64,000 bases of DNA. It comes from Flavobacteriaceae bacterium NBU2977. Its GTDB lineage: Bacteria > Bacteroidota > Bacteroidia > Flavobacteriales > Flavobacteriaceae. Numbering within the stretch: the first letter of the stretch is position 1; every line of letters begins with the position of its first letter. The notes under the pieces were generated by a model. It saw nothing but the letters and a program-made list of their open reading frames with translations. It made no database searches and had not been told where the DNA came from. Shown piece by piece: positions 28,040 to 57,469 of this stretch. The stretch spans positions 806,001 to 870,000 of the forward strand of contig JAIOUW010000002.1 of assembly GCA_019931105.1 (NCBI GenBank), given 5' to 3'. A program made the position numbers and the translations under genes.

Positions 28040-28056
28040 ATGTTTATCTTTCGATT

Positions 28057-32676: not shown

Positions 32677-33012
32677 GTGAAAAAACATTGTCTTGCCCTA
32701 GATCTAAAAAACGACCCCGAATTGATAGAAAAATATGATGAATACCATAGAAATGTATGGCCTGAAGTACTGGACAGTCTGCGGGATTCTGGAATCGTAC
32801 ATATGGAAATCTACCGCATTGCCAATCGTTTGGTAATGCTGATCGAGGTTGAAGATTGGTTTTCTTTCGATAAAAAAGCGAAAATGGACGCCGATAATAA
32901 AAAAGTGCAGGAATGGGAAACCTTGATGTGGAATTATCAACAGGCCCTGCCCGTTGCCCAACCGGGAGAAAAATGGTTGCCGTTGAAAAAAGTTTTTGAT
33001 TTTAAAGCTTAA
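32677..33012 (+). CDS. L-rhamnose mutarotase-like protein
   Basis: 111 residues from a GTG start, the usual size of the RhaM/FucU-like ferredoxin-fold mutarotases. N-terminal LKNDPELIEKYDEYHRNVWPEVLDSLRDSGI with the catalytic-type His, then IYRIANRLVMLIEVE, then WETLMWNYQQALP. It interconverts sugar anomers; RhaM acts on L-rhamnose, but the neighbours point to a uronic acid or other deoxysugar. First gene of a plus-strand operon of six. Confidence 0.85.
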   Translation: MKKHCLALDLKNDPELIEKYDEYHRNVWPEVLDSLRDSGIVHMEIYRIANRLVMLIEVEDWFSFDKKAKMDADNKKVQEWETLMWNYQQALPVAQPGEKWLPLKKVFDFKA

Positions 33013-33063
33013 GATGACATTTGATTGTCGGCCGACAAAGCAACTAAGCAAAATCAATTAAGC

Positions 33064-34446: not shown

Positions 34447-34447
34447 T

Positions 34448-38447: not shown

Positions 38448-41400
38448 TTATTCCATCGGATGCTCCTCTAACAATTCCGTAGGCGAATAAAATCCTTCCT
38501 TGTCCTTAACGGCTTCACGAACCTCTTTCACTTTTTCGGGTGTGATCGGATCCGCTTTATTGCCAAAGGTATTGCGTACAAAAGTCAGTACCGCGGCAAC
38601 TTCTTCATCGTTCAGCATTCCCCCAAAAGGGGTCATCGGCACTTGACCGGGATAAGTTTTGCCCCCTAATTGCAATGGTCCCATCAAACCTTTCAAGGTC
38701 AATTTTATCAAACGTTCTTCGTTGCCTGTCACCCATTCCTGTCCGGCCAACGGCGGAAATTGAGAGGCGCTCAATCCTTGTCCATCAGGTTGGTGGCAGG
38801 TAACACAGAAACCTTCGCGATTATAGATTTCCTCACCCTTGACGAACAATTCTTTGGCCGCACCCTCTAAATCAGTCTTGGTTCCACCCTCGGGATCATC
38901 TCCAACGTTATGATCGTTCAAATGGGCCAAGGCAGCCTCATACGGCTTTTGCATCCAATCATCCAGGGGAAGTTTTCCCGCCGCTTCCACAATCGGAATC
39001 CCTACTTCTTTATCCAACCAAGAAGCGGCCACAAAGGCTTCCAATCGCACACGGGGATTTTCGTCTTGTACAGCGGCCATCAACAAATCTGCCTGATCCG
39101 AGATTTGATGCCCGGCATATCGCAATACTTTCACGGCGGCCGAGCGTGCCCGAAAGTCCTTGGCATCAAGGTTTTGGACCAAAAGATCCCTATCGACTTT
39201 GTTCAATCCCCAAGTTACCCAAAGGGCTTCCAGTAGATGGTGCTCAAATCTTGGGTCGCTTTTATCCAAATTTGCGGCCCAGGCCTTTGTCTTTTCCAAT
39301 ACCTGTTCGGCATCCCTTGCCCGTAGTTCCCTTCTTGTACGATAACGCGTTCGATATTCGGGAAGTTTTAAATTGTCCAATAATTCCTCGATACTGGCAT
39401 CCACGATTTTGGCCGGTTCGACCAATGGTCGGGATGGGTACGTCAATCGATAAACCCTTCCATGTACATGATCGCGCAGTGGGTCACGGGCATTGTGTTG
39501 CATGTGGCCGACCAACACATTGTGCCAATCGACGAAATAAAGCGAGCCATCAGGGGCAAACTCCATGTCGACGGGCCTAAAATTGGTATCGTCGGAAACA
39601 ATGAGGTCTGTTCTATGTTTACTGGTATAACTCGAGGAATTCGGGTCATCGACCATCGTATGCTGTTTGGTACCCAAGAAGCCTATGGTATTGTTTATCA
39701 AAATATCGCCCTGAACATTATCGGGAAAATGTCGGCTATGTACAAACTCCAATCCCGAGGTCGGCCTCACGCGATGTGCTTCTTCGATCAGGTTTTTCGG
39801 TAGCGGATTGGCCTGCCCGTAGCGCGATTTTATCGTTCCCGGCATCATCCAGGTCATATCAGGACCCGAAGTGTGTGCAAAGAAGGGTTGCCCCCATTCG
39901 TCAAAAGCGATTCCCCAAGGGTTCGGAATCGATAATTGCGCCGTGCGTTCCAAATAATGCCGTTGCGGGCTATACCGGTAAAAACCGCCATTGGTAGCCC
40001 TTACCGGGCCATAAGCCGTTTCGACATTGGTATGTAGAAAAACACCTTCGCCCATATACATCGCTCCAGAAGGATCGGCGGCATAGGCACTAATGCCATG
40101 GTGCGTATCGTGATCATCGAATCCGCTTAAAATGATTTCCTTTATATCGGCATGGTCATCGCCATCGGTATCCTTTAGCAAGACCAAATTGGTGCCCTGG
40201 GTGACGTAAACACCTTCAGGGGCGAATTCAAAGCCCAACGGCAAATGGAGCCCTCGTGCAAAAATGGTCTGCTTATCGGCCTTTCCGTCATTATCGGTAT
40301 CCTCCAAGATCAACAACTTATCATCAGGCTTGCTGTCCCCCGGTTTGTAATGGGGATAACTTGGCATCGTGGCGATCCATAACCTTCCCTTATTGTCAAA
40401 GGACATCTGCACGGGATTCGCCAAATCGGGAAACTCTTTTTCAGAAGCGAACAGTTCCAATTTGTAACCCTCGGCCACCTTCAATTTGTTCAGTGCGTCT
40501 TCGCCATACAAATATTCCGGATTTCCGGCACCGTTGACATCTTTGTAATTTGTTTCCACGGGGAGGAGTTTTTTGGTCATGGCATCCATTGCCGCCAAAT
40601 CGGTCGGTTTTCCTTGGGCGGTATTCCAGATCAGGGTATCACGATTGGCCGTCATTTCGTTGACCTTCACTTTCTCATCAGGATAGTTGTCTGGGCCAAA
40701 AGGATCATAGCGCCTTCCCCAGGCATGCACCCCGTTCGGTAATTTTATCTCATTGTGCCAAAACCAATTTTTATCCATCACGGCAGCATGCACAGATTCA
40801 CGTTTTTCATCTGCAATCTTTCCATTTTTACCAAAAATGCTATCGGCCAATAGTCGGGAAAGTTTTTGATAGCCTAGATCATTCAGTTGAAATCCGTCAG
40901 CGGTCATTGGTGCATTTTCTGAGTCGTACCATTTTTTGCTCGGGCCATAGGCATCCACAAAAACTACGCTGTCCTTAGCGGCCACTTCCCGCATGGCATC
41001 GGTATACAGCTTAAGATTTTTGTTTTCCTCGATTCCATTGGGCAAATCCATTTCTGCAGAGCGGTCTTCAAAAGCGGTCGGGGAAACCAATACCAATCTT
41101 GGGGCCGATTCACCATTGTATCTTTGTTTTTTGGTATGCTCGATGAAAGCATGTAGTTCGTCTTTAAAGTTTTGCAATCCGGCCTCTCCATAAAACGATT
41201 CGCTATAACCGAAAAAACCGATAATAATGTCGGCACCCAAATTGGTCAGCCATTCATCTTCCGAAGGAAAAAAACCAATGCTCCCCGATTTATTGGCATG
41301 GGCACCCTGATGAAACTTTTCGGCCCCGGGAAATGCCCATGGTAAATTTCTTGAGGAATGTGGTCGAAATCCGGGAGTGTTGCCCCCATCAGCCATGTTT

Positions 41401-41612
41401 CTAATAAATAGGGTGCTATCGGGATAGCGCAGGTGCATTTCGGTCTCAAAATATCCATAATCCATCATTCGGGAGGCTAAATTATTTCCGATAAGAACGA
41501 TGTGGTCGTTCTTACCGACCTCAATCGCACCTTTCTGTTTTTGCGAACAGGCAATGCCCAACAGTACGATTAAAACTGATGATCCGATAATCCTTTTAAA
41601 ACTCTGTACCAT
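38448..41612 (-). CDS. Multidomain SGNH / beta-propeller / HEAT / cytochrome c lipoprotein (PVC-type heme-binding)
   Basis: 1054 residues from the ATG at 41612; an ATG 11 codons earlier overlaps the upstream gene. The lipobox is LGIAC (Cys22). Domains in order: SGNH-hydrolase-like (about 35-265), PVC-type propeller (about 375-725; GEDALNKLKVAEGYKLELFA onward, with LLILEDTDNDGKADK calcium-like loops), HEAT-like repeats (about 740-890), and cytochrome c with CVTCH at 936-940 and Met ligand in PMTPFG. The SGNH serine block reads IGNN instead of GDS, so esterase activity is doubtful. This family is implicated in periplasmic sugar oxidation; electron transfer is inferred from the heme site. Confidence 0.88.
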   Translation of the reverse strand: MVQSFKRIIGSSVLIVLLGIACSQKQKGAIEVGKNDHIVLIGNNLASRMMDYGYFETEMHLRYPDSTLFIRNMADGGNTPGFRPHSSRNLPWAFPGAEKFHQGAHANKSGSIGFFPSEDEWLTNLGADIIIGFFGYSESFYGEAGLQNFKDELHAFIEHTKKQRYNGESAPRLVLVSPTAFEDRSAEMDLPNGIEENKNLKLYTDAMREVAAKDSVVFVDAYGPSKKWYDSENAPMTADGFQLNDLGYQKLSRLLADSIFGKNGKIADEKRESVHAAVMDKNWFWHNEIKLPNGVHAWGRRYDPFGPDNYPDEKVKVNEMTANRDTLIWNTAQGKPTDLAAMDAMTKKLLPVETNYKDVNGAGNPEYLYGEDALNKLKVAEGYKLELFASEKEFPDLANPVQMSFDNKGRLWIATMPSYPHYKPGDSKPDDKLLILEDTDNDGKADKQTIFARGLHLPLGFEFAPEGVYVTQGTNLVLLKDTDGDDHADIKEIILSGFDDHDTHHGISAYAADPSGAMYMGEGVFLHTNVETAYGPVRATNGGFYRYSPQRHYLERTAQLSIPNPWGIAFDEWGQPFFAHTSGPDMTWMMPGTIKSRYGQANPLPKNLIEEAHRVRPTSGLEFVHSRHFPDNVQGDILINNTIGFLGTKQHTMVDDPNSSSYTSKHRTDLIVSDDTNFRPVDMEFAPDGSLYFVDWHNVLVGHMQHNARDPLRDHVHGRVYRLTYPSRPLVEPAKIVDASIEELLDNLKLPEYRTRYRTRRELRARDAEQVLEKTKAWAANLDKSDPRFEHHLLEALWVTWGLNKVDRDLLVQNLDAKDFRARSAAVKVLRYAGHQISDQADLLMAAVQDENPRVRLEAFVAASWLDKEVGIPIVEAAGKLPLDDWMQKPYEAALAHLNDHNVGDDPEGGTKTDLEGAAKELFVKGEEIYNREGFCVTCHQPDGQGLSASQFPPLAGQEWVTGNEERLIKLTLKGLMGPLQLGGKTYPGQVPMTPFGGMLNDEEVAAVLTFVRNTFGNKADPITPEKVKEVREAVKDKEGFYSPTELLEEHPME

Positions 41613-41631
41613 ATTTTGCTTAGATTGGATA

Positions 41632-42600
41632 TTATAATGTAACATGTATTCCTTTATTGACCGAAAGCTCACAAGCCTCGATAATTCGCTGGCAGGTAAT
41701 CGCATCTTGCAAGCTTGATAACGGTGGTTCAGACTCCCTTAATATTTTGTCGACAAAATGGGTCGCCGTATTCTTGATCGATTCAGGATAGCATTGATAG
41801 GTCTGCGAATGTGCCCCGTTGCGATCGTTGATCACGAAATCGCGATAACTATATCGGGTGCTACCTTTCGTACCGATTACCTTGATGATACATGTCCATG
41901 GGTCTCCGGCATGGTCATCGTTGGCAAAACTGGCGCAGAGGTGGCTCAAGGTGCCGTTTTGCATTTGAACATTGGCCATGGCCACATTCTCTTGGGGGGC
42001 AATGGTATCATCGACCGTATTCATAAAACAAGAAACCTTTCTCGGTGCACCTGCCAGATAGAGCATCGTATAGCTGTGATGGGTCAGTATCTGACGAATG
42101 ACCCCGGGATACCGCGCCCGGATCTCATCGGCATGGTGGATGTTGTACATCATGTAGAACTGCACCACATCGCCCAGTTTACCACTTTCGATCATTTGCT
42201 TGGCACGCATGATGCCCGGTTCGTAAATGTAATTATGTACGGGCATGCATTTGACACCAGCTTTTTCAACGGCCATTTGCATTTTTTTCAATTCGGCGAT
42301 ATTGGAAGCCGCCGGTTTTTCCACTAAAATATGTTTTCCGGCTTCCGCTGCCCGAACGGTATATTCGCAATGGGTTTCCATATTGGTCAACACGAAAACC
42401 GCATCAATCTTTGGATCTGACAAAAGTGCCTCGACCGAACCATAGACCTTACAGCCAAATACAGAAGCCCTGGCTTGCGCCTTTTCCGGCGTACGATTCC
42501 ATAACCCGATAAGTTCTGCCCCTGGCAATCGGTTTATAGCCTCGGCATGTAGATTGGCAATGTCGCCCGCTCCTATAAATCCGATTCCATAGGTCTTCAT
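41632..42600 (-). CDS. Gfo/Idh/MocA family oxidoreductase
   Basis: 322 residues, cytosolic, no signal. The Rossmann start GIGFIGAGDIANLHAEAI and the EKPAASNIAELK motif with the catalytic Lys are present. The C-terminal part includes a HHSYTMLYLAGAPR segment with a plausible substrate His. The gene overlaps the upstream epimerase gene by 4 nt and ends 20 nt before the propeller-cytochrome lipoprotein, so the three form one operon. Confidence 0.9.
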   Translation of the reverse strand: MKTYGIGFIGAGDIANLHAEAINRLPGAELIGLWNRTPEKAQARASVFGCKVYGSVEALLSDPKIDAVFVLTNMETHCEYTVRAAEAGKHILVEKPAASNIAELKKMQMAVEKAGVKCMPVHNYIYEPGIMRAKQMIESGKLGDVVQFYMMYNIHHADEIRARYPGVIRQILTHHSYTMLYLAGAPRKVSCFMNTVDDTIAPQENVAMANVQMQNGTLSHLCASFANDDHAGDPWTCIIKVIGTKGSTRYSYRDFVINDRNGAHSQTYQCYPESIKNTATHFVDKILRESEPPLSSLQDAITCQRIIEACELSVNKGIHVTL

Positions 42601-43616
42601 GAACTAGCTTTTGAATATTCTAAAATTCCATTTTTCGCCATGGTCTTGAACGCGACCAACGATTTGCGTACACCTTCTGAAATAGCCGTCAAGGGAAGGT
42701 TATCAAAAGTACTATCTATTTTGTCATGGCTCAGATCGGAAACGAACAAATTCGGAGGAGCCCCTTCGGTTATCGAAAGTTCGGCAAAGTCGCCCATTCC
42801 CAATTCCGTGGCCTGTTGTTTGGCTATTTCCAAAAAATCTTCAATCGCAATGGTCTTTCCTTTGATGTTAAATGCCCCGAACCCTTCATACGGTTGTAAG
42901 GTACACTGAGCAAAATGACTGCCAACATCTTCCACAAAATGGTAGTTTTCACGACCTTGATACGGCATGGCAAAAGGTGATATCTCATTGGCTACCGCTC
43001 CCATCGCTATGGCCTTCAATGCATTGGTCGGGGCCGATGTCTTACCTTTGTCCCTTCCTTTTCCATAGGTCGTGTTTATACGAAGACAAACTGTCGGTAC
43101 CTTGGTATTGTCGTGAAAAAGTCGGGCCAAATGTTCCCCGGCCAACTTCCAGATACCGTAATGGTTAGGGGGAGCCAATTGTGCATCTTCTTTAATACCG
43201 GGCTCGGAATACATAGACCGCATACCGTAGACCGCGGCAGAACTGGCAAATACGAAACGCTTCAGATTCGGAAGCTTTTCTGCGGCATCGAAAAGTGCCA
43301 TCGTACCGCCCGTATTGATCTGCATACCACCGATATGGTCGTTGGAACAATCCGGACTCTGATACGCACCCAAGTGGATGATATGTGTCGGATCTATCTT
43401 GTGAAGGGTCTCTTCAATGGCCTTATAATCGGAAACATCGAGTTTTATAAACTCCAGTCGCGGATCTAAATTTTCGCCCAACCATAGTTTTAACGGCTGG
43501 GTGTTATTGGATCGGGTCGCGACCACAATTTTGTCGACCGACGACGACTGCAATAATTTATAAATAGTTACGGAGCCGATGCATCCGGTACCTCCCGTAA
43601 TAAAGATTTTTTGCAT
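42597..43616 (-). CDS. NAD-dependent epimerase/dehydratase
   Basis: 339 residues of the extended SDR type. Cofactor loop TGGTGCIGSVT at residues 7-17, HLGAYQSP in mid-domain, FASSAAVYG with the catalytic Ser, and YGIWKL with the catalytic Tyr-xxx-Lys. These enzymes epimerise or oxidise sugars, often nucleotide-linked. First gene of the operon; starts close to a degraded heptamer tract. Confidence 0.9.
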   Translation of the reverse strand: MQKIFITGGTGCIGSVTIYKLLQSSSVDKIVVATRSNNTQPLKLWLGENLDPRLEFIKLDVSDYKAIEETLHKIDPTHIIHLGAYQSPDCSNDHIGGMQINTGGTMALFDAAEKLPNLKRFVFASSAAVYGMRSMYSEPGIKEDAQLAPPNHYGIWKLAGEHLARLFHDNTKVPTVCLRINTTYGKGRDKGKTSAPTNALKAIAMGAVANEISPFAMPYQGRENYHFVEDVGSHFAQCTLQPYEGFGAFNIKGKTIAIEDFLEIAKQQATELGMGDFAELSITEGAPPNLFVSDLSHDKIDSTFDNLPLTAISEGVRKSLVAFKTMAKNGILEYSKASS

Positions 43617-43711
43617 GTTTTTATAGATGTTAGACTTTAGGTTTGAGATTTTAGATTTGGGACTTTGAACGTATTATCTCAAGCCTAACTTCTCAAATCC
43701 CATAGCTCCCT
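43617..43711. repeat. Decayed heptamer repeat tract
   Basis: The gap between the alcohol dehydrogenase stop and the epimerase start holds units like ttagact, ttaggtt, tgagatt, ttagatt followed by cctaact. It is a worn version of the 7-bp arrays seen elsewhere in the window. No gene is seen. Confidence 0.5.
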
Positions 43712-44818
43712 TTAATTCATTTTAACCACCGCTTTCATATTTTTTGCCTTAATGGAATCTTCAAAGGCCTGCGTCACATCATCAAAATCATAGAAATCGG
43801 TATAATGTTCGGCAGGAAAGACTCCGGTTACCATCAACTTCATCGCCGCCATATAGTCATCCCTACACGAACCCATAGACCCTCTCATGTTCAAAGATGT
43901 ACGCGTCAAATGCGTTGCGTTAATAGGCACTTCTTGCCCATAAGTGGCAATCACACAGATATCACCTTCTGGGCGCACTACCTCTATAGCCTCGGTCAAT
44001 ACGGCCGGCACGCCCGAACATTCGATGAGCAAATCAACCTTTCCGTTCGTGCCAAAAGGAATTCCTTGGTCATCGGTCAACCCATTTTGTAATTGAACGG
44101 CCAAGCTGTTTTCTGGAGAAACCTCTAAAGTGATGAACCCTCTTTCCCTTGCCTTTTTCAAACGGATATCACGATCATGGGCGATGCCCGTGACGGCTAC
44201 CCTAGCGCCGGCGGCCCGTGCCACTTCGGCGGACATCAAACCTATGATTCCGCAGCCGGTGACGATTACATCTTGTCCCGGTTTGATGTTGCATTTATTA
44301 TAGAGGGCATTGGTGATAATCGATAAGGGTTCGACCAAAGCCCCTTGCTCGGGGGTCATGCCCTCGATCAAATGCACAACCCTATCGGACTCCAATACGA
44401 CTTGTTGGCCGAAACCTCCATTTCTATGAAAACCAATGATTTGCTTCGATGGGCAAAGATTCCATTTGGAAACACTGCAAGCCGGACAGTCCTCATCACG
44501 GCAACCCAACATGGCCAATGGCGTAAAGATATCCCCCACTTTTAGGTCACCGTGGTCGCCCGGTCCCAATTGCAAAACCTCGGCGCTGAATTCGTGGCCG
44601 ATGATCCGCGGTCGTTGTACCCAGTCAAAATTGGCCTTTCCGATGGAGGCACTATTATCGGAGCCGCATATTCCGGTATATAACGTTTTGGCCAGAATTT
44701 CCCCTTCTTTTAATTCAGGGATTTCCATATCCACAACCGAGGTATTCTTGGTTACGTTATCGGAATTCGGATAAATTTTTTCCTTGCCGTGAAGACAAAA
44801 GCCTTTTATTTTGGTCAT
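43712..44818 (-). CDS. Zinc-dependent alcohol/sugar dehydrogenase (MDR family)
   Basis: 368 residues from the ATG at 44818. The open frame continues 37 codons upstream through an inverted repeat, and that tail is an artefact. Catalytic zinc motif GICGSDNSASIG and GHEF, structural zinc cysteines in GCRDEDCPACSVSKWNLC, and nucleotide loop VTGCGIIGLMSAEVARAAGA. Resembles threonine, sorbitol and 2,3-butanediol dehydrogenases. In this neighbourhood a sugar or polyol substrate is inferred. Confidence 0.9.
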   Translation of the reverse strand: MTKIKGFCLHGKEKIYPNSDNVTKNTSVVDMEIPELKEGEILAKTLYTGICGSDNSASIGKANFDWVQRPRIIGHEFSAEVLQLGPGDHGDLKVGDIFTPLAMLGCRDEDCPACSVSKWNLCPSKQIIGFHRNGGFGQQVVLESDRVVHLIEGMTPEQGALVEPLSIITNALYNKCNIKPGQDVIVTGCGIIGLMSAEVARAAGARVAVTGIAHDRDIRLKKARERGFITLEVSPENSLAVQLQNGLTDDQGIPFGTNGKVDLLIECSGVPAVLTEAIEVVRPEGDICVIATYGQEVPINATHLTRTSLNMRGSMGSCRDDYMAAMKLMVTGVFPAEHYTDFYDFDDVTQAFEDSIKAKNMKAVVKMN

Positions 44819-44831
44819 TGTATATTTTTTC

Positions 44832-44961
44832 GAGGATGTCTTAAAAGCAAGTTTAGTTACATTGTCAGGTTGAGCTTGTCGAAACCGATTTTTGATAATA
44901 AGCAAGTTAAAATATTTCGACAGGCTCAATATGACATTTAGTCAAATTTTTAGACATCCTC
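44832..44961. repeat. MITE-like imperfect palindrome, about 130 bp
   Basis: Ends are GAGGATGTCTTAAAA on the left (44832-44846) and its near reverse complement on the right (to 44961). Inside lie further paired blocks, TTGAGCTTGTCGAAA against TTTCGACAGGCTCAA, so the whole element could fold into one long hairpin. It sits upstream of the alcohol dehydrogenase. No transposase is present. Confidence 0.87.
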
Positions 44962-45005
44962 TTTCCTTAATAATTACCTTATTTTTCTATTGGAGTCTTG
45001 CCGGC

Positions 45006-46166
45006 CTACCAACTTACCCCGGTATCTTTCCAGCTTTTTGATTTTGCGGATTCAAGAACGGCTTCGCAGACTTTCTGTGTCTCTTGGGCTTCCTTGAATG
45101 TCGGGGAACACGGTTTGCCTTCCTCCAAACATTGCAGAAAATCGGCCACTTGGTGAACGAAACTGTGCTCATAACCGATGGATAATCCGGGTACCCACCA
45201 TTTGTCCATATAGGGTTGGTCGCCGTCGGTTACATGAATGGAACGCCATCCTCTTTCAATCGACTCGTCCCTATGGTCAAAATATTCGAGACGGGTAAGG
45301 TCGTGCAGGTTCCATTTTATGGAAGCGTGCTCGCCATTGATCTCAAAAGTATACAGGGCCTTGTGGCCCCTGGCATAGCGTGTGGATTCGAACAATCCCA
45401 ACGAACCATTATCGAAATGACAATGAAAGATACAGGCATCGTCGATACCTACTTTTTGCTTTTCGCCTGTCAAGGAGTGTACCCTTTCTTTGATGAAAGT
45501 CTCGGTCATGGCCGAAACGTCCTTGATACCCCCATTGAGCCACATTGCCGTATCGATACAGTGTGCCAATAAATCGCCCGTAACCCCAGAACCCGCGGCA
45601 TCATTGTCTAATCGCCACAGGCCTTCGCCACCTTGGGGCAGTTCGGGGCTTATCGTCCAATCTTGTAAAAAGTTGGCCCGATAGTGGAAAATCTTACCCA
45701 ATTTTCCGGCATCTATGAGTTGTTTGGCCAAGGTAACGGCCGGTATTCTTCTATAATTGTAATACACGGTATTAGCGACCCCGGCCTTTTCGATGGCATC
45801 TACCATAGGTTGTGCCTCGGCCACCGTTCGTGCCAATGGTTTTTCGCAAAGTACCATTTTACCCGCTTCGGCAGCGGCAATGGCAATTTCGGCATGCATA
45901 TTATTGGGCGTACAAATATCTATGGCATCGATATCGTCGCGGGCGACCACTTTGCGCCAATCGGTCTCTACCGATTCGTAGCCCCACTGTTCGGCAAAGG
46001 CGGTTACGCGCTCTTCGTTACGCGCACACACCGCTTTCAAGACCGGTCTGTATTTTAAATCGGGGAAAAAATCGCCGACTCTTTTATAGGCATTGGAATG
46101 GGTACGCCCCATAAATCCGTAGCCGATCAATCCTACTCGAAATTCTTTTTTGTCACTCATGTCCAT
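45006..46166 (-). CDS. Gfo/Idh/MocA family oxidoreductase
   Basis: 386 residues, cytosolic. The Rossmann opening is [19 protein letters not shown]; the EKP motif reads [14 protein letters not shown]-terminal hallmarks include [16 protein letters not shown] and the glycine-rich [16 protein letters not shown]. The start may instead be the ATG two codons later. Next gene upstream in the same direction is a TIM-barrel isomerase (131-nt gap), a pairing typical of sugar/inositol oxidation pathways. Confidence 0.93.
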
Positions 46167-46297
46167 ATCTTGATAATCTTAGTAGTCGTTCTATTTACGT
46201 TTTGGGAAACCCACTGTTGAGATTTCCCATTCCCAAAAGGAAAGGGATAGATTTCAACGTTCCAACGGCGCACATTGCCACTTTTGAATATTTGGAT

Positions 46298-47341
46298 TTA
46301 TTCTTTCCAGCCGTGTAGTTCGCGAACCTTCAACATCGCCCCTAAAATATCGTTCCATGTTTTGGGTTGCATCATCACATCGTTGGGGAACATACATCCG
46401 TCCCAACAAATGTGCTTTAATTTCTTGGTCAGGTTTCCATTTTCATCGCGTAGCCAGTGGCCGGCATCCACGGCAATATCCAATTTACCGTTGGGATCGG
46501 AGGCCTGGCAATGCCTTCCCGTCTTATCATGGGAGCCCGAACCGAAAACGGTACCATCATTTTGTGCTACGTGAAAATCGATCGTCCACGGTCGCAGGGC
46601 TGCTGTCAAAGTTTTTAGTCCCTCGGTTAAAGTTTCCCGATCATTCCAATCGAAATCTTTGGGAAGAATGCGTTCATCCTCTTTATTATAACCCAGAAGG
46701 TACAATAAGGTATGCGCCATATCCGCCTGAAAACCGATATTGGGCCTATCAACGGCCTCCAAAGTGTTGATCATCGTTTTCCAGCCATGCATACCGCCCC
46801 AGCAAATTTCGCCTTCAGCGGCAAGTGATTCACCATAGTCGGCCGCGACATCACATGCCTCGCGAAAGGTTTGGGCGATGAGCTTCGTATTACCTGCCGC
46901 GTCTTTGGCCCAACTTTCTGGATCGACCGAAGAGTCGATCCTGACAATGCCATGGGGCCTGATTCCCATATCACGTAATTTTTTCCCTATGGCACAGGCC
47001 TTTTGAACTTGGGTAACAAAATTTTTACGTTCTTCGGCCGAACCCATTGCCGAACCACCGCCCGTAACCCCCCAGACCGGAGCCACAAAACTTCCTATTT
47101 CCAAGTTGTACGAACCGACCTTGTCGGCCAATCGCTTCAAATCATCATCGGAGGAATCGATACTCACATGGGGATCGGCCAAGAATAGGTCGACACCATC
47201 GAATTTTTGTCCATCTACCTCGGCATCGGCGGTCAATTTCAGCATCGTATCCAAATCGATAGGCGGTTCAGAATCCGGGCCTTTGCCCACCACCCCGGGC
47301 CATGACGCATTATGAAGCTTAGGAAAGTTGTTCTCTTGCAT
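46298..47341 (-). CDS. TIM-barrel sugar phosphate isomerase/epimerase-like protein
   Basis: 347 residues, AP-endonuclease-2-like fold. Metal-ligand-like segments: [15 protein letters not shown] (Glu), [14 protein letters not shown] (Asp/His), [13 protein letters not shown] (His) and [14 protein letters not shown] near the end. No signal. Transcribed with the Gfo/Idh gene downstream. Likely acts on a keto-sugar or inositol-type substrate; this is inference. Confidence 0.85.
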
Positions 47342-47576
47342 TTTTATAGGGATTTTACAGTTTAAAGGCTATTTTTCACTGTTCTAAAATTAACTAAAAA
47401 TAGGATTATCGAAAATTTTTGCAAGATTAATATCCTAACATAAATGACAATGGCACATCGGTTTAACAAATTAATTATGAAAAGTTCAAAAAAAAGTCGA
47501 ACTTTTGACGATATTTAATTCCGCTTTTTATAAGTTCGAAACTTGTGTAACCAACTAATTACTTAAACAATATATT
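47342..47576. promoter_or_regulatory. Divergent promoter region, isomerase / MFS
   Basis: 235-bp A+T-rich gap between two divergent starts. Contains an inverted pair around AGTTCGA / TCGAACTT near 47484-47504 and another TTCGAA near 47535; possibly an operator for a shared regulator. Not proven. Confidence 0.35.
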
Positions 47577-48827
47577 ATGGAAAATACTGCATCTGCTTCG
47601 ACTACCAATGCCAATAGGCTGTTTTATGGTAGTTGTTTTGCATTGATTACCACAGCTCTTTCATTCAGCATAAGAGCTGGAATTTTGCCACAGCTGGGCG
47701 AGGAATTGAGTTTGAACGCCGAGCAATTGGGTTATATCAATTCAATGTGGTTCTTGGGCTTTCCCATATCAATGGTAATCGGAGGATTGATATATCATAA
47801 GGTTGGCGGAAAGGCCATTATGCAATTCGCGTTTTTTGCCCATGCCATCGGTATCATAATGACCATCTATGCCGGGAGCTATACAGGCCTTTTGATATCG
47901 ACCTTGCTCATCGGTCTAGGTAACGGGTGTACCGAGGCCGCTTGTAACCCGATGATAGCCGATGCCTATCAAGGAACCCGAATGAGCAAGATGATGAACC
48001 GTTTTCACATGTGGTTTCCAGGGGGCATCGTAATAGGAAGCTTGGTCTCGAAATTCATGACGGATGCCGGTATGAGCTGGGAGTCGCAAATTTGGGTCAT
48101 TATGATTCCTACATTGATTTACGCTTATTTATTCTTCGGGCAAAGTTGGCCCAAGGCAAAAGTTCAGGAAGGCGCCACGCTTATGGGAAATTTAAAGGCC
48201 ATGGCATCTCCGTTGTTCCTGTTCATGGTGGTTTGTATGGCACTGACCGCCGCTACTGAATTCATACCGCAACAATGGACGAGCGTTATCCTTTCTAAAA
48301 GTGGTGCCCAGCCCATGTTGATTCTAGCCTTGGTAACGGGTATTATGGCAGTGGCCCGCTATTTTGGTGGCGAAATGGTAGCAAAATTCGACCAGACCGG
48401 CGTATTGCTCGGATCCGCGGTCTTGGCTACGGTCGGTATTTATCTGTTCAGTACTCAAACGGGCACAATGGCCTATGTAGCGGCAATATTTTTCGCGCTC
48501 GGTGTTGCCTATTTCTGGCCGAACATGATCGGGTTCATTGCGGACAAAATTCCAAAAAGTGGTGCTTTGGGGATGTCAATACTGGGTGCCGTGGGAATGT
48601 TTTCCCAGACCATTTTTCAACCCCTAACCGGGCGATGGATCGATTCTGACAAAGCTGAGGCTGCGGCAGCCGGACTTACAGGTGATGAATTGGAACTTGT
48701 AGCCGGGCAAGATACCATGCAGACCATTACCATTTTTCCAATTATATTGATCGTACTATTTACCATACTATATTTTTGGGTGAAGAACCGTAAGCAAGAC
48801 GATACTCCTGTGGCAACCGCACACTAA
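47577..48827 (+). CDS. MFS sugar transporter
   Basis: 416 residues with 12 predicted membrane helices. Major facilitator features: helices start at about residue 17, a loop motif GGLIYHKVGGKAIM between helices 2 and 3, and GLGNGCTEAACNPMIADAY in helix 4-5 as in the fucose/glucose permease-type group. It is placed between two TIM-barrel isomerase genes, so a sugar-like substrate is inferred. Terminator follows. Confidence 0.9.
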   Translation: MENTASASTTNANRLFYGSCFALITTALSFSIRAGILPQLGEELSLNAEQLGYINSMWFLGFPISMVIGGLIYHKVGGKAIMQFAFFAHAIGIIMTIYAGSYTGLLISTLLIGLGNGCTEAACNPMIADAYQGTRMSKMMNRFHMWFPGGIVIGSLVSKFMTDAGMSWESQIWVIMIPTLIYAYLFFGQSWPKAKVQEGATLMGNLKAMASPLFLFMVVCMALTAATEFIPQQWTSVILSKSGAQPMLILALVTGIMAVARYFGGEMVAKFDQTGVLLGSAVLATVGIYLFSTQTGTMAYVAAIFFALGVAYFWPNMIGFIADKIPKSGALGMSILGAVGMFSQTIFQPLTGRWIDSDKAEAAAAGLTGDELELVAGQDTMQTITIFPIILIVLFTILYFWVKNRKQDDTPVATAH

Positions 48828-48846
48828 CTAAAAATGAAAGAAACTT

Positions 48847-48886
48847 AAAATGACCCCCTGCCTGTTTTTAAGGAGGGGGTCATTTT
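48847..48886 (+). terminator. Rho-independent terminator after MFS gene
   Basis: A 13-bp stem (AAAATGACCCCCT / AGGGGGTCATTTT) with a 14-nt loop, followed by three more T in the T run. Confidence 0.9.
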
Positions 48887-48946
48887 TTTATTGAGAATCC
48901 AGCATTTACTTTTGTGTATGTGGGAATCAAATAAAACAATTTAGTT

Positions 48947-49786
48947 ATGAAGATAGGAATGAACATGCTCCTCTGGACCAACCATGTGACGGAAGCACAT
49001 TTCCCCCTTGTGGATACTCTGAAGAAAACCGGCTTTGATGGTGTGGAACTATTTTTAGGGGAAGGCGATGAAGCTCATTATGCCAAACTGGGCCGATATT
49101 TTTCAGATGCGGAAATGGGCGTAACCGCTGTGGCCGCCTTGGCACCTGATGAGAATATTGCGAGTCCTAATAAAAATTATAGGGCCGCCGGCTTGGATAA
49201 ACTCAAATGGTCGATCGATATGAGTGCTGCGGCCCATGTCGAGGTCATTTGCGGACCGTTTCATTCAACATTCGCTTATTTTACCCGTCAACCTCCGACC
49301 CTTGAAGAAAAACAATGGAGCATCGAAATGTTGCGAAAAGCGGCCGAATATGCAGAACGATCGAATATCATGCTAGCCCCCGAGGCCGTAAATCGTTTCG
49401 AATGCTACTTGTACAATACCATGGCCGATCTGAAAACCATGGTAGAGGCGGTGGATCATCCGAATTTGGGCGCGATGTACGATACGCACCATAGTAACAT
49501 CGAGGAAAAAAGTCAGTCCAGCGCTTTAAAGACCATTGCACCCGTTTTAAAACATATACATATCAGTGAAAACGACCGTGGTACGCCGGGAAGCGGACAA
49601 GTCGATTGGAACGATGTTTTTCCGGCCATAAAGGAAATAGGCTACGATGGATGGCTGACCATAGAAGCTTTTAGCACGATCATTCCCGAATTTGCCAATG
49701 CGATCAACGTATGGCGAGATTATTCGCCTTCCGAAGAGATATATACCAAAGGTTTGAAGCTCATAAAAGAAGGTATGGGTATCTGA
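48947..49786 (+). CDS. TIM-barrel isomerase (hydroxypyruvate isomerase / tagatose epimerase-like)
   Basis: 279 residues. Xylose-isomerase-like TIM barrel: MNMLLWTNHVTEAHF at the start, LAPEAVNRFECYL with metal Glu, GAMYDTHHSNIEE with Asp/His, KHIHISENDRGTPGSGQVDW and LTIEAFSTIIPEF with the second Glu. These motifs match the ketose 3-epimerase group (DTE-like), which binds Mn via Glu-Asp-His-Glu. Role in the local keto-sugar metabolism is inferred. Confidence 0.9.
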   Translation: MKIGMNMLLWTNHVTEAHFPLVDTLKKTGFDGVELFLGEGDEAHYAKLGRYFSDAEMGVTAVAALAPDENIASPNKNYRAAGLDKLKWSIDMSAAAHVEVICGPFHSTFAYFTRQPPTLEEKQWSIEMLRKAAEYAERSNIMLAPEAVNRFECYLYNTMADLKTMVEAVDHPNLGAMYDTHHSNIEEKSQSSALKTIAPVLKHIHISENDRGTPGSGQVDWNDVFPAIKEIGYDGWLTIEAFSTIIPEFANAINVWRDYSPSEEIYTKGLKLIKEGMGI

Positions 49787-49787
49787 A

Positions 49788-49851
49788 GTCGGAAGTTTGA
49801 AGTTTGAAATTGGAAGTTGGAAGTTGGAAGTTGGAAGTTGGAAGTTGGATA
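49788..49851. repeat. 7-bp tandem repeat array
   Basis: About eight copies of a gaagttt / gaagttg heptamer immediately after the isomerase stop and before the ThuA gene. The reverse strand reads as SNFQLPT-type peptide repeats in an open frame, which is not a gene. Confidence 0.88.
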
Positions 49852-49897
49852 AGGAAAGATGTTCAACGCAGTGTGTAAACATTTAAAAATAAAATTT

Positions 49898-51013
49898 GTG
49901 AAAAAAACAATCCTTTTATTGGTTTTCGGTCTTCTAATCGGTTCCTGTGTAGAAAAAAAGAAAGAAACCGTAGTTGAGAAAGTCGAAGAGACCCCAAAGC
50001 AATGGTTGAGTTTCGAGGGAGACGATGAAAATGCAAAACATATCGTTTTGATTTCAGGCGATGAAGAATACCGTTCCGAAGAGGCACTTCCTCAATTGGC
50101 AAAAATACTTTCTGAACATCACGGATATAATTGTACGGTCTTGTTTGCGCAAGACCCCTCAAAACCTGGAATCGTAAATGCCAACTACGTCAATAATATT
50201 CCCGGCCTCGAAGCCTTGGATTCGGCTGATATGATGGTCATATTTACACGGTTCCGTGCATTGCCCGATGACCAGATGCAACATATCGACGACTACCTAA
50301 GGGCGGGGAAACCCGTGGTCGGTATCAGAACGGCGACCCACGCTTTCAATTTTTCAAAAGATTCAACCTCGAATTTCAAACATTACGGTAATTATTACAA
50401 AGGCGATAAAACCGAATGGGAAGATGGCTTCGGGCGGTCGGTACTTGGCGAAAACTGGGTGAATCATCACGGGCACCACAAACATCAAAGTACCCGGGGA
50501 ACCATTGCAGAAGATGCCAAATCACATTCCATAGCAAACGGTATTGAGGATGGCGAAATTTGGGGACCCACCGACGTTTACGGCATTCGGCTACCGTTAC
50601 CGGAAGACGGTCAACCGATAATTCTAGGACAGGTCGTCAATAGAAAAGGTGACTATGACGAAAACGACCTCTTTTTCGGCATGAAGCCCACCGATGATGA
50701 ACTGGCTACCGAAAACAATGCGGGAGAAAAAGTGAATGACGTTCTGATGCCCATTGCGTGGACCAAAAGCTATCAATTGCCCGGTGGTAAAAGGGGAAAG
50801 GCATTTACCTCGACCATAGGTGCGGCCTCGGATTTATTGAACGAAGGGGTGCGACGGCTATTGATAAATGGTATTTTTTGGACAATGGATGAAACCGTTC
50901 CCGAAAATGCGAATGTCGATTTGGTCGGAAAGTACAATCCCTCTGCATACGGATTTAAAGATGATGAATACTGGATAAACAAGAAGCTTTCGGTCGAAAG
51001 CCTCGCGCAGTGA
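49898..51013 (+). CDS. ThuA-domain lipoprotein
   Basis: 371 residues from the GTG at 49898; an upstream ATG at 49859 adds 13 residues before the signal and is less likely. Lipobox LIGSC. The ThuA fold (glutamine-amidotransferase-like) shows HIVLISGDEEYRSEEALPQLA, YLRAGKPVVGIRTATHAF, and NHHGHHKHQSTRG. ThuA/ThuB of rhizobia act in trehalose and related sugar use through keto intermediates. Here it is exported, fitting periplasmic sugar oxidation; the substrate is unknown. Confidence 0.85.
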   Translation: MKKTILLLVFGLLIGSCVEKKKETVVEKVEETPKQWLSFEGDDENAKHIVLISGDEEYRSEEALPQLAKILSEHHGYNCTVLFAQDPSKPGIVNANYVNNIPGLEALDSADMMVIFTRFRALPDDQMQHIDDYLRAGKPVVGIRTATHAFNFSKDSTSNFKHYGNYYKGDKTEWEDGFGRSVLGENWVNHHGHHKHQSTRGTIAEDAKSHSIANGIEDGEIWGPTDVYGIRLPLPEDGQPIILGQVVNRKGDYDENDLFFGMKPTDDELATENNAGEKVNDVLMPIAWTKSYQLPGGKRGKAFTSTIGAASDLLNEGVRRLLINGIFWTMDETVPENANVDLVGKYNPSAYGFKDDEYWINKKLSVESLAQ

Positions 51014-51059
51014 TTCGCTTGGTCTTGGTGCCTGAAGGGTTCAATCAAAACTTTTTAAA

Positions 51060-51881
51060 ATGAACGAGAAACGAAAATTTACCGGAATCCCTTACATGGT
51101 TACATTCGCCATGCTATTGCTTTTAAATGTTATCCCATTAACTGCCCAAGATAATGGGGAAGGTAAAGTACTTATGGCAATTTTTGCCCATCCCGACGAC
51201 GAAATGACCGTATCACCCATTCTTTCAAAATATGTCGATGAGGGTATCAAGGTGTATCTCGTTATTTGCACTGATGGCCGATTGGGCACCAATGATTTTA
51301 CCGATCATGAGGCCGGGGATGGTTTGGCCGCCCTGCGTAAAGAAGAGATGCAGTGTGCCGCCGAAAAACTTGGTGTAGAACTGATACATTTAGATTATCA
51401 TGACCAGCTTAGGGCCGCCGAGGGTTACGATGGCCATGTACCGCACGCCAGGGAGTTGATTTTAGAATTAGAAGGTATCGTTGCCGACAAGAAACCCGAC
51501 GTTCTGATTACTTGGGGACCCGACGGAGGGAGCACCCATATGGACCACCGTTTGGTAGGCGCATCGGTTACACAGGTATTTCTCAGTAAAATTTGGGAGA
51601 AACCAAAAAAGTTATTTTACGTCGGCACCCCTTCTTATCTCATTGATGAACCAGAACGAAAAAAATTGGCCGGAATCGATTCGACGTATCTCAACGTTGG
51701 TATCAAATACGCTGAAAAAGATGCCGCAAGAGCCTTAGAATCGTTGAAATGCCATAAGAGCCAAGTTTCGCCTGAAATGCTCAAATGGAGGGAAACATCG
51801 GGTAAAAAATCGAAGTCAACAATCTATTTAAGAGAATTTGTTGCACCTGTACAGAAAAAGCAATCTTCTCTATTTGAATAA
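51060..51881 (+). CDS. PIG-L/LmbE-family deacetylase, secreted
   Basis: 273 residues with an N-terminal signal (about 13-30). The Zn-binding motif AHPDDE (about residue 42) and the second His in MDHRLVGASV are present, together with LHLDYHDQL-like ELIHLDYHDQLRAAEG. The family removes N-acetyl groups from sugars such as GlcNAc-inositol. It follows the ThuA gene by 46 nt. Convergent with eboF. Confidence 0.9.
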   Translation: MNEKRKFTGIPYMVTFAMLLLLNVIPLTAQDNGEGKVLMAIFAHPDDEMTVSPILSKYVDEGIKVYLVICTDGRLGTNDFTDHEAGDGLAALRKEEMQCAAEKLGVELIHLDYHDQLRAAEGYDGHVPHARELILELEGIVADKKPDVLITWGPDGGSTHMDHRLVGASVTQVFLSKIWEKPKKLFYVGTPSYLIDEPERKKLAGIDSTYLNVGIKYAEKDAARALESLKCHKSQVSPEMLKWRETSGKKSKSTIYLREFVAPVQKKQSSLFE

Positions 51882-51932: not shown

Positions 51933-53303
51933 TTACTGTACGTGGGTTCTGATCACTTCAAAGACTTCGGTCGGTGCTATGTTTTTCTCAAGACTACAAG
52001 TTTGATTATTGGTAATCAAAATGGGATGGTCATCAACATCATCGGGAATCCGGCCATGTGAACCCTTTACCAGTTTTGCATTCAGGGGAATGATATCCAT
52101 TACCGTTCTAAAACCCAACTTCTTCTTGATCAGTTTGCCGATTACCTTGGGCATCACGAATTTGTCCTTTGGATCGGTCAGCATTTCGACGGGATCATAC
52201 CCCGGTTTTTTATGAATATCCACCATTCTGGCATAGTCGGGCGCTTTTTTATCATCCATCCAAAAATAATAGGTAAACCATGATCGGGAGTCCGCCAAAA
52301 CGACCAGATCACCACAACGTTCATGATCCAGATTGATCGCTTTTCGCGCTTCACCGAAATATACCTTTTCAACGCCCTCAACTTTTTCAAGTAGTTTTTT
52401 GACTTCCGACGCTATCGATTTGTCATTTAAATAGATATGTGCGATTTGATGGTCAGCCACGGCAAACGCCTTGCTCGCACCGGCATCTAAAAGTTCCAAT
52501 CCTCGCTCGATCCGAACGTTGAGCAGTCCTTCTTCCCTTAAGACCCGATTCAGATGAATGGGATTGTCAACATTCGTAATACCATATTCGGAAAGCAGAA
52601 TGATATTGGCATTTTTTTCTTGATAGTATTCGACCAACTGCCGTACAACACGATCTATTTCATTCAAGTCTTTCGAAATGACCTTAAAATCGAGTCCGTG
52701 CCTTTGAAGGTTATAATCCAGATGGGGAAGATACACCAGTGTCAGCGTCGGATCATATAAACGATCGGTTTCCAGAGTGGCATCCGCTATCCATTGGCTC
52801 GATTTGATCGAGGTTTTCGGCCCCCAAAAATGGAACAAGGGGAAAGTACCCAATTTATCCTGAAGCTTGTCACGTAGATCTGCCGGATGCGAATAACAAT
52901 CGGGAATCTTTCTGCCATCGGCCAAGTAATTCGGGCGGGGCGTAACATTGTAATCGGTATTGGCGTACATATTGTACCACCAGAACATATTTGCACAGGT
53001 GAATCCCGGATTTTGGCTTTTGAGCCTGTCCCAAATTTTTTCGCTTTTCACGAGTTTGTTGGATTGTCGCCAGAATTTCACCTCGCACTCATCTTCAAAA
53101 TACCAACCGTTACCCACAATACCGTGTTCCGATGGATACTTTCCGGTGAGGTAGGTAGACTGGGCCGTACAGGTTACGGCAGGAAGTACAGGGGTAATCG
53201 TCGTCGATTTGCCCTTCTCAAAAAATGATTTTATAAATGGGGTGTGCTCGCCAATAAGTCTTTTGGTCAGGCCCACTACATTTATTACAACGGTTTTTTG
53301 CAT
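51933..53303 (-). CDS. eboF: EboF: alkaline-phosphatase-superfamily phosphodiesterase-like protein
   Basis: 456 residues, nucleotide pyrophosphatase/phosphodiesterase fold. The nucleophile region PAVTCTAQSTYLTG gives Thr44 and SHGRIPDD keeps a late metal His. But the first metal Asp is replaced: the opening strand reads VVINVVGLT with Val10 at the usual Asp. SEYGI stands where the family has SDHGM, and PHLDYNLQRHG where it has PDxxGH. So the metal site is remodelled or lost. Last gene of the ebo operon, 3 nt after eboE. Letter assignment follows the published A-F scheme by gene type. Confidence 0.85.
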   Translation of the reverse strand: MQKTVVINVVGLTKRLIGEHTPFIKSFFEKGKSTTITPVLPAVTCTAQSTYLTGKYPSEHGIVGNGWYFEDECEVKFWRQSNKLVKSEKIWDRLKSQNPGFTCANMFWWYNMYANTDYNVTPRPNYLADGRKIPDCYSHPADLRDKLQDKLGTFPLFHFWGPKTSIKSSQWIADATLETDRLYDPTLTLVYLPHLDYNLQRHGLDFKVISKDLNEIDRVVRQLVEYYQEKNANIILLSEYGITNVDNPIHLNRVLREEGLLNVRIERGLELLDAGASKAFAVADHQIAHIYLNDKSIASEVKKLLEKVEGVEKVYFGEARKAINLDHERCGDLVVLADSRSWFTYYFWMDDKKAPDYARMVDIHKKPGYDPVEMLTDPKDKFVMPKVIGKLIKKKLGFRTVMDIIPLNAKLVKGSHGRIPDDVDDHPILITNNQTCSLEKNIAPTEVFEVIRTHVQ

Positions 53304-53306
53304 AGG

Positions 53307-54500
53307 TCAGAGCCTTTCTTTGAACCACTCGATTTCACGTACAATGGATCCGGACAGGTTTTTCTTCAATTCTTGCGGAAGAACATCCCAAGTATACGTT
53401 TCTATTTCAAGATGTTCCGAAACTTGATTTTCTTTGAGATAATCGACCACTTTGAGAATATGGTCCTGGGTGGAATATAACTTACCAAAATGCTCCAAAA
53501 AAATAGGAACATGAAAATGGGCACGAAGTTCTGAAAATGCCTTTCGTTCTTTCAAAACGATTGGCAGGTCATTATAAGTCTTGACCTTTCCATTGATTTT
53601 TTCGGTTACCTGATGTAAATACGTGGGTTCGTCAAAACGAGAAAGTGACTCCCATACGGCTTCTTCGTCGGTTTCGTCATTTATAATTTTTAATGCGGCG
53701 CTCACTTGGATCTTGCCGATTTTTATACCCGCATTACGCAATTTCAGGAAAGTATCCAAAGGTTCTTCGAAGGCCAGCGAAAAATGGCAGATATCGTAGC
53801 ATACGGTGATGTAGCGCTTGATGATCTTTTCAGCTTCCGGTTCATTTAAATCAAGTCTTTCCTTTAAAATTTCCGTGCCGATAGGTATTAAATAGTCGGC
53901 GTAAAAATGCAAGACCTCATCACTGTTCTCCAACAATCCATCAGGTTCTGGTTCAATGTCGAGATGCAAATATTTGCCCGTTTTGCCTTCTATGTCGTAA
54001 AGCCGTAATGCGATTTCCGTAAAGTTCTTTGCGCCTGTCTCAAAGGCCCTTTGGGTGGTTTCCTTTGTATCGTGCCAGTATTTGTAAGTTATTGGGGAAG
54101 TTGATATTCCGCCCGATAATCCCTCTGGGATCAATTCGGACAATTGGTCAAAAAGTCGTTTGGTATAGGTTACCCGATCTTTCGTGGTCCAATCAGGGGC
54201 ATGTACATTTTCTTTGACCCTTTCATCATGAAAATTCCCATAAGGAAAGCCGTTCATGGTAAACACGTACACCCCATTTTCATGCAACCATTGTTTGAAC
54301 GCTTTGAGGTTGTTTCCCTCGGCAAGTTCTTCGCTTGCCTTGTTGGACAATCGAAGGCCCAGACCAAAATCCGATCCGTTGGAAACTTTCGCCTTTATGC
54401 CGGGCACATAGGTTTTAAGACTTTCAAACGTACTTTTCCAATTCGCCCCGGGATGAATGTTGGTACAATAGGTAAGATGAAAAGAATTGTTGATCAGCAT
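53307..54500 (-). CDS. eboE: EboE: TIM-barrel metabolite traffic protein
   Basis: 397 residues, xylose-isomerase-like TIM barrel. Opens with the EboE hallmark LTYCTNIHPGANWKSTFESL. Likely metal ligands lie in YLHLDIEPEPDG (Glu/Asp), VCYDICHFSLAFE (Asp/His) and KIGKIQVSAAL; the fold is kept but the substrate is unknown. 10 nt after eboD and 3 nt before eboF. Confidence 0.92.
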   Translation of the reverse strand: MLINNSFHLTYCTNIHPGANWKSTFESLKTYVPGIKAKVSNGSDFGLGLRLSNKASEELAEGNNLKAFKQWLHENGVYVFTMNGFPYGNFHDERVKENVHAPDWTTKDRVTYTKRLFDQLSELIPEGLSGGISTSPITYKYWHDTKETTQRAFETGAKNFTEIALRLYDIEGKTGKYLHLDIEPEPDGLLENSDEVLHFYADYLIPIGTEILKERLDLNEPEAEKIIKRYITVCYDICHFSLAFEEPLDTFLKLRNAGIKIGKIQVSAALKIINDETDEEAVWESLSRFDEPTYLHQVTEKINGKVKTYNDLPIVLKERKAFSELRAHFHVPIFLEHFGKLYSTQDHILKVVDYLKENQVSEHLEIETYTWDVLPQELKKNLSGSIVREIEWFKERL

Positions 54501-54510
54501 TTACCTGAGT

Positions 54511-55674: not shown

Positions 55675-55680
55675 TTTGGT

Positions 55681-57468: not shown

Positions 57469-57469
57469 G

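Follow-up and report, generated by a model that had tools for sequence, protein, structure and literature searches.

We analyzed a 64,000-nucleotide stretch (hereafter the window) of the 3.8 Mb genome of Flavobacteriaceae bacterium NBU2977 (GCA_019931105.1, contig JAIOUW010000002.1, positions 806,001 to 870,000). It carries a gene island at positions 38448–51013 that we read, with a probability of about 0.6, as a mainly cytosolic keto-sugar pathway for a glycoside or a modified hexose, in which oxidation comes first. Its newest part is a TIM-barrel protein, termed TIM1, from a family in which no characterized member was found, together with its near-constant partner, an LgdA-like dehydrogenase (hereafter LgdA).

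A conserved island around the TIM1–LgdA pair

The island and the gene next to it comprise the following features.

38448–41612, minus strand: haem lipoprotein with an SGNH-like N-terminal part, a DUF7133/PVC-type domain, HEAT and cytochrome c (Pfam, NCBIfam)
41632–42600, minus strand: GfoB, the second Gfo/Idh oxidoreductase (PF01408, 101 bits; IolG, 126 bits, cut-off 355)
42597–43616, minus strand: extended SDR of the NAD epimerase/dehydratase family (PF01370, 115 bits)
43712–44818, minus strand: ZnADH, a Zn-dependent medium-chain dehydrogenase (PF08240/PF00107)
45006–46166, minus strand: LgdA-like Gfo/Idh sugar dehydrogenase (NF052479, 347 bits, cut-off 650)
46298–47341, minus strand: TIM1, a xylose-isomerase-like TIM barrel of 347 residues (AP_endonuc_2; PF01261, 46 bits)
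47342–47576, no strand: intergenic region between the arms (from the gene coordinates)
47577–48827, plus strand: MFS transporter (PF07690, 100 bits)
48947–49786, plus strand: TIM2, a ketose-3-epimerase-type TIM barrel of 279 residues (AP_endonuc_2; D-psicose 3-epimerase model, 163 bits, cut-off 300)
49859–51013, plus strand: divergent ThuA-domain lipoprotein (PF06283, 42 bits, cut-off 33.4)
51060–51881, plus strand: PIG-L deacetylase (PF02585, 94 bits)

All ten proteins were found as open frames with these Pfam families, in agreement with a preliminary description of the stretch made from its letters alone. The genes form two divergent arms, which leave a region of 235 bases between them that is presumed to be the promoter region. 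The minus arm reads TIM1, LgdA, ZnADH, SDR, GfoB, and haem lipoprotein, the plus arm MFS, TIM2, ThuA, and PIG-L, and the gaps within the arms range from an overlap of 4 bases (GfoB and SDR) to 187 bases. By eye, lipoboxes were recognized in the haem lipoprotein and ThuA and a signal-like start in PIG-L; no signal was seen by eye at the starts of TIM1, LgdA, ZnADH, SDR, GfoB, and TIM2. An orthologue of PIG-L occurs in 4 of the 80 loci described below, and PIG-L was rejected as a member because it is rarely present in relatives. The cluster that had been described thus stands as a conserved unit from 38448 to 51013, with PIG-L outside.

In a TIM1-based contig scan, the best 80 of 112 relatives (67–98% identity) were taken and the remaining 32 were not included. 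These 80 loci and 8 more formed a set of 88 for tblastn, with flanks of up to 10 kb a side and at least one duplicate, as L029 and L051 look like the same contig. Among the best 80 of 112, the named relatives of TIM1 were chiefly from Maribacter and Arenibacter. The locus titles named Flavobacteriaceae, Cytophagales, Saprospiraceae, Chitinophagaceae, Poribacteria, Verrucomicrobia, Planctomycetes, Bryobacteraceae, Acidimicrobiia, and Hyphomicrobiaceae, at least five phyla overall; because many loci are metagenome-assembled genomes (MAGs), single odd titles may be binning errors. A homologue of LgdA with at least 50% identity was encoded on the same strand within 4 kb downstream of TIM1 in 71 of the 80 loci, at a distance of 204 bases or less in 66 of those 71; it was missing from 7 loci, and 2 loci end too early. 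In most loci of other phyla, the pair was all that was present of the island genes queried.

The two genes also co-occur across genomes. Among 395 genomes of the phylum, LgdA (E ≤ 1e-120) was found in 11, all of which carry TIM1, and TIM1 in 16, the five without LgdA carrying a divergent TIM1 (53–56%); Fisher's test gave 5.5e-18, relatedness being ignored. Pairwise distances of LgdA and TIM1 were correlated over 59 loci (r 0.91; Mantel, 0 of 2000), a pattern that joint inheritance or joint transfer of the partners would produce. Within the family, TIM1 was present in 9 of 120 genomes, and the pathway is therefore accessory. The pair was not described in the titles and the beginnings of abstracts listed in searches of open-licence literature.

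Thirty-seven loci (L036–L069, L072, L073, and L092) were treated as flavobacterial-type; they take in L067 and L068, believed to be Cytophagales, and MAGs with general titles, and some are short contigs. Orthologue families covered ZnADH in 34 of these loci, SDR in 33, GfoB in 33, MFS in 34, TIM2 in 34, ThuA in 33 (a family that also includes second ThuA copies), and the haem lipoprotein in 29. The MFS family occurred in none of the 43 other loci. An AraC-type regulator was present in 23 of the 37 and lies between MFS and TIM1 in L042, a place where the window offers only 235 bases. In high-GC loci, antisense open reading frames were called (e.g. orthologue family 16), and TIM1 was lost to them in the orthologue grouping of L091, L099, L104, L105, L107, L110, and L113. 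Because of this, the orthologue-family counts and the DUF1080 count may be low for other phyla; counts made by tblastn on DNA (pair adjacency and flank searches) are unaffected.

Enzymes of the island and the proposed pathway

The best NCBIfam match of LgdA was the levoglucosan dehydrogenase model NF052479 (347.2 bits), and its sequence matches in the PDB included 4h3v (343 bits) and 6a3f (280 bits), the latter of which we take to be levoglucosan dehydrogenase. In an alignment of 62 sequences, K109, D198, and H202 were each at least 98% conserved. They correspond to the lysine of the EKP motif and the active-site Asp and His of Gfo/Idh/MocA enzymes, and LgdA has the active-site residues of this family. 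Its match to DgpA (7xr9) was only 90 bits, and no small beta subunit of the DgpBC type was detected by Pfam among the ten proteins, the genome not having been searched for one.

A levoglucosan (anhydro-sugar) pathway proper, orthologous to LgdA/LgdB1/LgdB2/LgdC, would account for this best match and is nevertheless highly improbable. In the Bacillus smithii system, a related Gfo/Idh enzyme likewise carries out a 3-oxidation, followed by TIM-barrel steps and a second Gfo/Idh, with proteins of similar sizes (PMC7676230, PMC10066097); its TIM barrels, one near 30 and one near 36 kDa, are close in size to TIM2 and TIM1 (PMC7676230). A ZnADH also occurs in the Metabacillus plasmid cluster described below. 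The island adds an SDR of its type, ThuA, and the haem protein, and has an MFS where B. smithii has an ABC transporter (PMC7676230, PMC10066097). LgdA did not reach the curated cut-off of NF052479, and the name levoglucosan dehydrogenase was rejected for it on that ground. A Gfo encoded on a Metabacillus plasmid does pass the model (758.2 bits), is 39% identical to LgdA, and lies in a cluster that also encodes a ZnADH and three complete TIM barrels, with one more truncated at the edge; the Gfo proteins of Arthrobacter (353.7 bits) and Spirosoma (377.7 bits) stay under the cut-off. The TIM1 profile found no match among the three complete TIM barrels of the Metabacillus cluster, and a marine flavobacterium seems an unlikely home for a pyrolysis sugar. 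TIM2 is 28–29% identical to two of these barrels.

TIM1 had no match in NCBIfam, in the PDB (none at 1e-3 with the single sequence, none at 1 by profile), or among plasmids. Its AlphaFold2 (AF2) model is a TIM barrel (mean pLDDT, a per-residue confidence score, 89.7). E176, D207, H257, and D314 were invariant in 51 sequences; in the model they sit where strands 5 to 8 end, and we read them as a putative metal site. The fold matches included IolE (Z 26.0), 2zds (25.2), IolI (24.9), AtHYD (24.1), epimerases (24–25), and xylose isomerases (23). AtOGE and CGE were not among the matches listed, which excludes nothing. AtOGE employs His132, Asp163, and His189, and to a weak degree Glu233, which lie on strands 5 to 8, and has His134 as the base (PMC10628242). 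Judged from the strand positions, TIM1 would have Glu176/Glu178 at strand 5 where AtOGE has His132/His134. Because a strand-5 Glu occurs in ketose epimerases, a reaction of the isomerase or hydratase type is at least as likely for TIM1 as an OGE-type elimination.

The Agrobacterium operon of GlycDH, AtOGE, AtHYD, and Gfo resembles the island in that it oxidizes, eliminates, hydrates, and reduces with two TIM barrels and a Gfo/Idh (PMC10628242). It differs in its first oxidation, which is carried out by the flavoenzyme GlycDH with a TAT subunit (PMC10628242), and the AtHYD-like fold of TIM1 is one of many tied folds.

TIM2 was matched by the D-psicose 3-epimerase equivalog NF051856 (163.4 bits, under the cut-off of 300) and in the PDB by 2ou4 (1.4e-32) and the E. 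coli YcjR structure 6wn6 (7e-15). Its conserved E146, D179, H182, H205, R211, and E240 align with the same letters in 2ou4 and correspond to the metal and catalytic residues of ketose 3-epimerases; TIM2 has the residues expected in the ketose 3-epimerase/YcjR superfamily. Among the other dehydrogenases, ZnADH, for which ATG at 44818 is the probable start, showed at least 98% conservation of C51, H75, E76, and C106/C111/C114/C122 in 35 sequences, and SDR the same for Y153 and K157 in 34 sequences; the PDB search with SDR gave none at 1e-15. We take the conserved motifs of LgdA, ZnADH, SDR, and TIM2 to be known active-site motifs. GfoB, inspected by eye, shows ILTHH where other Gfo/Idh enzymes have an active-site Asp before His, and its chemistry is possibly altered.

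Resemblances of this kind would also be compatible with remodelling as by E. coli YcjQRS: LgdA would oxidize C3, TIM2 epimerize C4, and ZnADH or GfoB re-reduce, so that a rare-sugar glycoside becomes a common one with its bond uncut, cleavage being left to other enzymes. TIM2 shares 26% identity with YcjR across 254 columns, and LgdA 28% with YcjS across 240; RefSeq names YcjQ D-guloside 3-dehydrogenase, YcjR 3-dehydro-D-guloside 4-epimerase, and YcjS D-glucoside 3-dehydrogenase; and ycjQRS and the island alike combine a zinc-type dehydrogenase of such size, a TIM barrel, and a Gfo/Idh. We nevertheless consider this explanation unlikely. BLAST did not pair YcjQ with the ZnADH of the island at 1e-3, TIM2 is nearer to ketose 3-epimerases (116.6 bits) than to YcjR (58.6 bits), and TIM2 was found in 9 of the 43 loci outside the flavobacterial type, while the TIM1–LgdA pair mostly stays. 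Unlike the island, the annotated ycjQRS cluster has no TIM1, SDR, ThuA, or haem protein.

The Thermotoga-type inositol pathway consists of IolG, IolM, IolN, and IolO. In an inositol or cyclitol pathway, GfoB would be the inositol dehydrogenase, ZnADH an IolM-like inosose dehydrogenase, TIM1 an inosose dehydratase with the IolE-like fold, and TIM2 an IolO-like epimerase. The resemblance to the Thermotoga-type enzymes is distant: GfoB scored 126 bits against IolG, ZnADH 145 (144.7) against IolM, and TIM2 134 against IolO, and the top structural rows of TIM1 were those of IolE. These three scores, however, lie far under the curated cut-offs of 355, 450, and 300 bits, the lead of IolE by 1–2 Z units is too small to choose, and nothing in the genome passed the cut-off for IolE (290 bits; highest score 57.8) or IolN (245 bits; 27.8). 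On this last ground an inositol pathway was rejected; it is quite improbable, and related operons elsewhere, with DUF1080 and a protein of phosphomannose isomerase (PMI) fold, fit reducing sugars.

From the observed gene content, conservation, co-occurrence, and conserved motifs, we infer a substrate class, a position of oxidation, an order of steps, and roles for TIM1, ThuA, and the haem protein in the preferred keto-sugar pathway. MFS, the probable importer, would bring the substrate in, after the exported haem and ThuA lipoproteins may have prepared or pre-oxidized it outside. LgdA would oxidize a ring hydroxyl with NAD, most likely at C3, and TIM1 would then act on the keto-sugar so formed. 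Its likeliest mechanism would be the removal of a proton adjacent to the ketone with the help of a metal, leading to beta-elimination, hydration, or epimerization. TIM2 would add a step of the ketose-epimerase type, and GfoB, ZnADH, and SDR would reduce or epimerize the released keto-sugar to a usable hexose. As judged from sequence, the island would follow the known scheme of oxidizing, eliminating or epimerizing, and reducing in a new form.

The haem lipoprotein matched PF23500 (231 bits), PF00034 (38 bits), and TIGR02604 (220 bits, cut-off 122), and the SGNH family PF13472 below its cut-off (23.2 against 32.9 bits); its start at 41612, with a lipobox ending in LLGIAC by eye, is more likely than that at 41705. 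ThuA, with the lipobox LIGSC by eye, is one of six genomic copies, five of which exceed the cut-off, and is the weakest of those (42 bits against 261 for the best); its PDB search gave none at 1e-3. The suggestion of the preliminary description that ThuA might be the cleaving enzyme was abandoned for such a weak, divergent, exported member. In Arenibacter (L043–L050 and L053), a second ThuA-like gene (36–40% identical) lies near position 9000, just upstream of TIM1, and L059, L067, and L068 also have one upstream of TIM1.

DUF1080 neighbours and a textbook keto-glycoside locus elsewhere in the genome

No PF06439 (DUF1080) match falls within the window, as had been described; the argument built on this absence, that another protein may do the cleavage, fails because 19 matches, all over the cut-off and two of them in one open frame, lie elsewhere in the genome. 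The locus at C8:1183–1194 kb (L127) holds two DUF1080 genes, a GMC dehydrogenase with Gluconate_2-dh3, a Gfo/Idh, a symporter, and three TIM barrels, and is a textbook 3-ketoglycoside locus. In total, the genome has 28 Gfo/Idh matches to LgdA, including LgdA and GfoB, and 5 GMC proteins. The GMC dehydrogenase with a Tat subunit reported at 6.4–8.7 kb was found as follows.

7025–8725: GMC dehydrogenase (Pfam)
6428–7021: Gluconate_2-dh3 subunit (starts MDRRNALKK, twin-arginine-like by eye)

This pair, 30 kb from the island, is 58% and 34% identical to the pair at C8:1183–1194 kb and had no listed match at 1e-10 in the flanks of the 88 loci. It was rejected as part of the island, to which it had earlier been linked, as unlinked in relatives, and is more likely related to the C8:1183–1194 kb system.

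Of the 17 loci from other Bacteroidota, among which L081–L084 are near-copies of one locus, 8 had a DUF1080 gene within 10 kb of the TIM1–LgdA pair, as did 3 of 26 loci of other phyla, as judged with a hidden Markov model of seven DUF1080 proteins from the genome itself; at the own-genome density (19 in 3.8 Mb), the 17 loci, with 264 kb in all, should contain about 1. Several non-flavobacterial Bacteroidota have the pair with a haem-c protein, DUF1080, DUF4432, and a protein of 407 residues, and all four of these stand beside it in L132–L135. In L134, the pair and this set occur together with ThuA, a DUF7133 protein, and TIM2; in L131, DUF7133, ThuA, a divergent TIM1, and TIM2 lie in a row with SusD upstream. 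The 407-residue family lies upstream of TIM1 in 18 of the 80 loci (e.g. L076:1926–3182 and L093:8738–9958) and had no Pfam or NCBIfam match in the 2 and 1 members scanned, respectively. Its AF2 model (pLDDT 72.8) matched phosphomannose isomerases at Z 21.3–23.7, the next group being at 12.7, and the protein is predicted to be a cupin with the PMI fold. Two Poribacteria MAGs have the pair followed by a PhyH protein, a ThuA of 45–46% identity, and a Zn dehydrogenase.

The DUF1080, DUF4432, and PMI-fold partners favour keto-sugar or keto-glycoside catabolism over inositol, and the coherent keto-sugar island of the preliminary description gains from them as well as from the conserved gene set. The DUF1080 gene near the pair in several Bacteroidota lineages is a feature shared with the DUF1080 3-ketoglycoside hydrolysis of BT2157 and of Caulobacter on lactose (PMC9007349). 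The pair belongs to keto-sugar surroundings, and the flavobacterial island does without DUF1080, the genome's copies being elsewhere. The least probable explanation is that keto-sugar chemistry is a side aspect of some unrelated function, concerned with sugar acids, amino sugars, or surface polysaccharides; it would suit the varying flanking genes and a flavobacterial island without glycoside hydrolase or SusCD, and is opposed by the DUF1080 neighbours, the importer, and the TonB receptor or SusD neighbours of several relatives.

Two Arenibacter loci have a DUF1080 gene right beyond ThuA (L072:2357–3202 and L073:3524–4369). A plasmid of Spirosoma oryzicola (L119:1–12525) encodes a 43% identical LgdA relative, two TIM barrels, ThuA, GH5, GH140, a TonB receptor, and SusD, and is a glycan locus with the same toolkit.

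Several observations weigh against an oxidation-first keto-sugar pathway. Only 2 of the 37 flavobacterial-type loci have DUF1080 near the pair, and in L034 and L035, both from family genomes, TIM1 and LgdA are about 1.8 kb apart with no other island gene near. LgdA stays under the levoglucosan dehydrogenase cut-off (347.2 against 650 bits), GfoB apparently lacks the usual catalytic Asp, and ZnADH, GfoB, and TIM2 also resemble inositol enzymes. The TIM1 profile matches neither a TIM barrel of the Metabacillus cluster nor YcjR, and the near-tied fold scores of its model do not choose a reaction.

Neighbouring loci and implications

Directly beside the island lies a complete ebo-type operon (51933–58324, minus strand) in the order phosphodiesterase (EboF), EboE, DHQ-synthase-like protein (EboD), UbiA (EboC), TatD (EboB), and a protein of 284 residues without Pfam match in the EboA position. 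EboE matched NF035939 (483 bits, cut-off 250); we assigned the other letters from gene order, as presumed equivalents. Two relatives (L036 and L038) also have EboF close to the island. For algal plastids, PMC5133447 reports a cluster of six genes, probably of Bacteroidetes origin. On the other side, 22914–36663 encodes a galactokinase, an FGE-type sulfatase activator, an aldose epimerase, a sulfatase, a Gfo/Idh, an SSF symporter, UxuA, and an SDR, and looks like a uronate or sulfated glycan locus; in Maribacter halichondriae (L041), a UxuA homologue follows the island. Two consecutive MacB/FtsX-type permeases, each of more than 800 residues, occupy 58590–63640.

Oxidation-first breakdown of glycosides offers an alternative to glycoside hydrolases, and it involves many enzymes without an assigned function. 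A highly conserved pair whose gene order hardly changes between distant phyla is a compact target, and its substrate would assign a function to the TIM1 family and bear on the PMI-fold cupin family. We propose tentatively, as a possibility somewhat short of even odds, that TIM1 represents an undescribed family of sugar enzymes that forms a two-enzyme keto-sugar unit with its Gfo/Idh partner, the surrounding enzymes being swapped by lineage: ZnADH, SDR, GfoB, and MFS in flavobacteria, and the haem protein, DUF1080, DUF4432, and the PMI-fold isomerase in other Bacteroidota. If so, TIM1–LgdA would join DUF1080 and OGE/CGE/LgdB as one more means by which 3-keto-glycosides are opened or remodelled.

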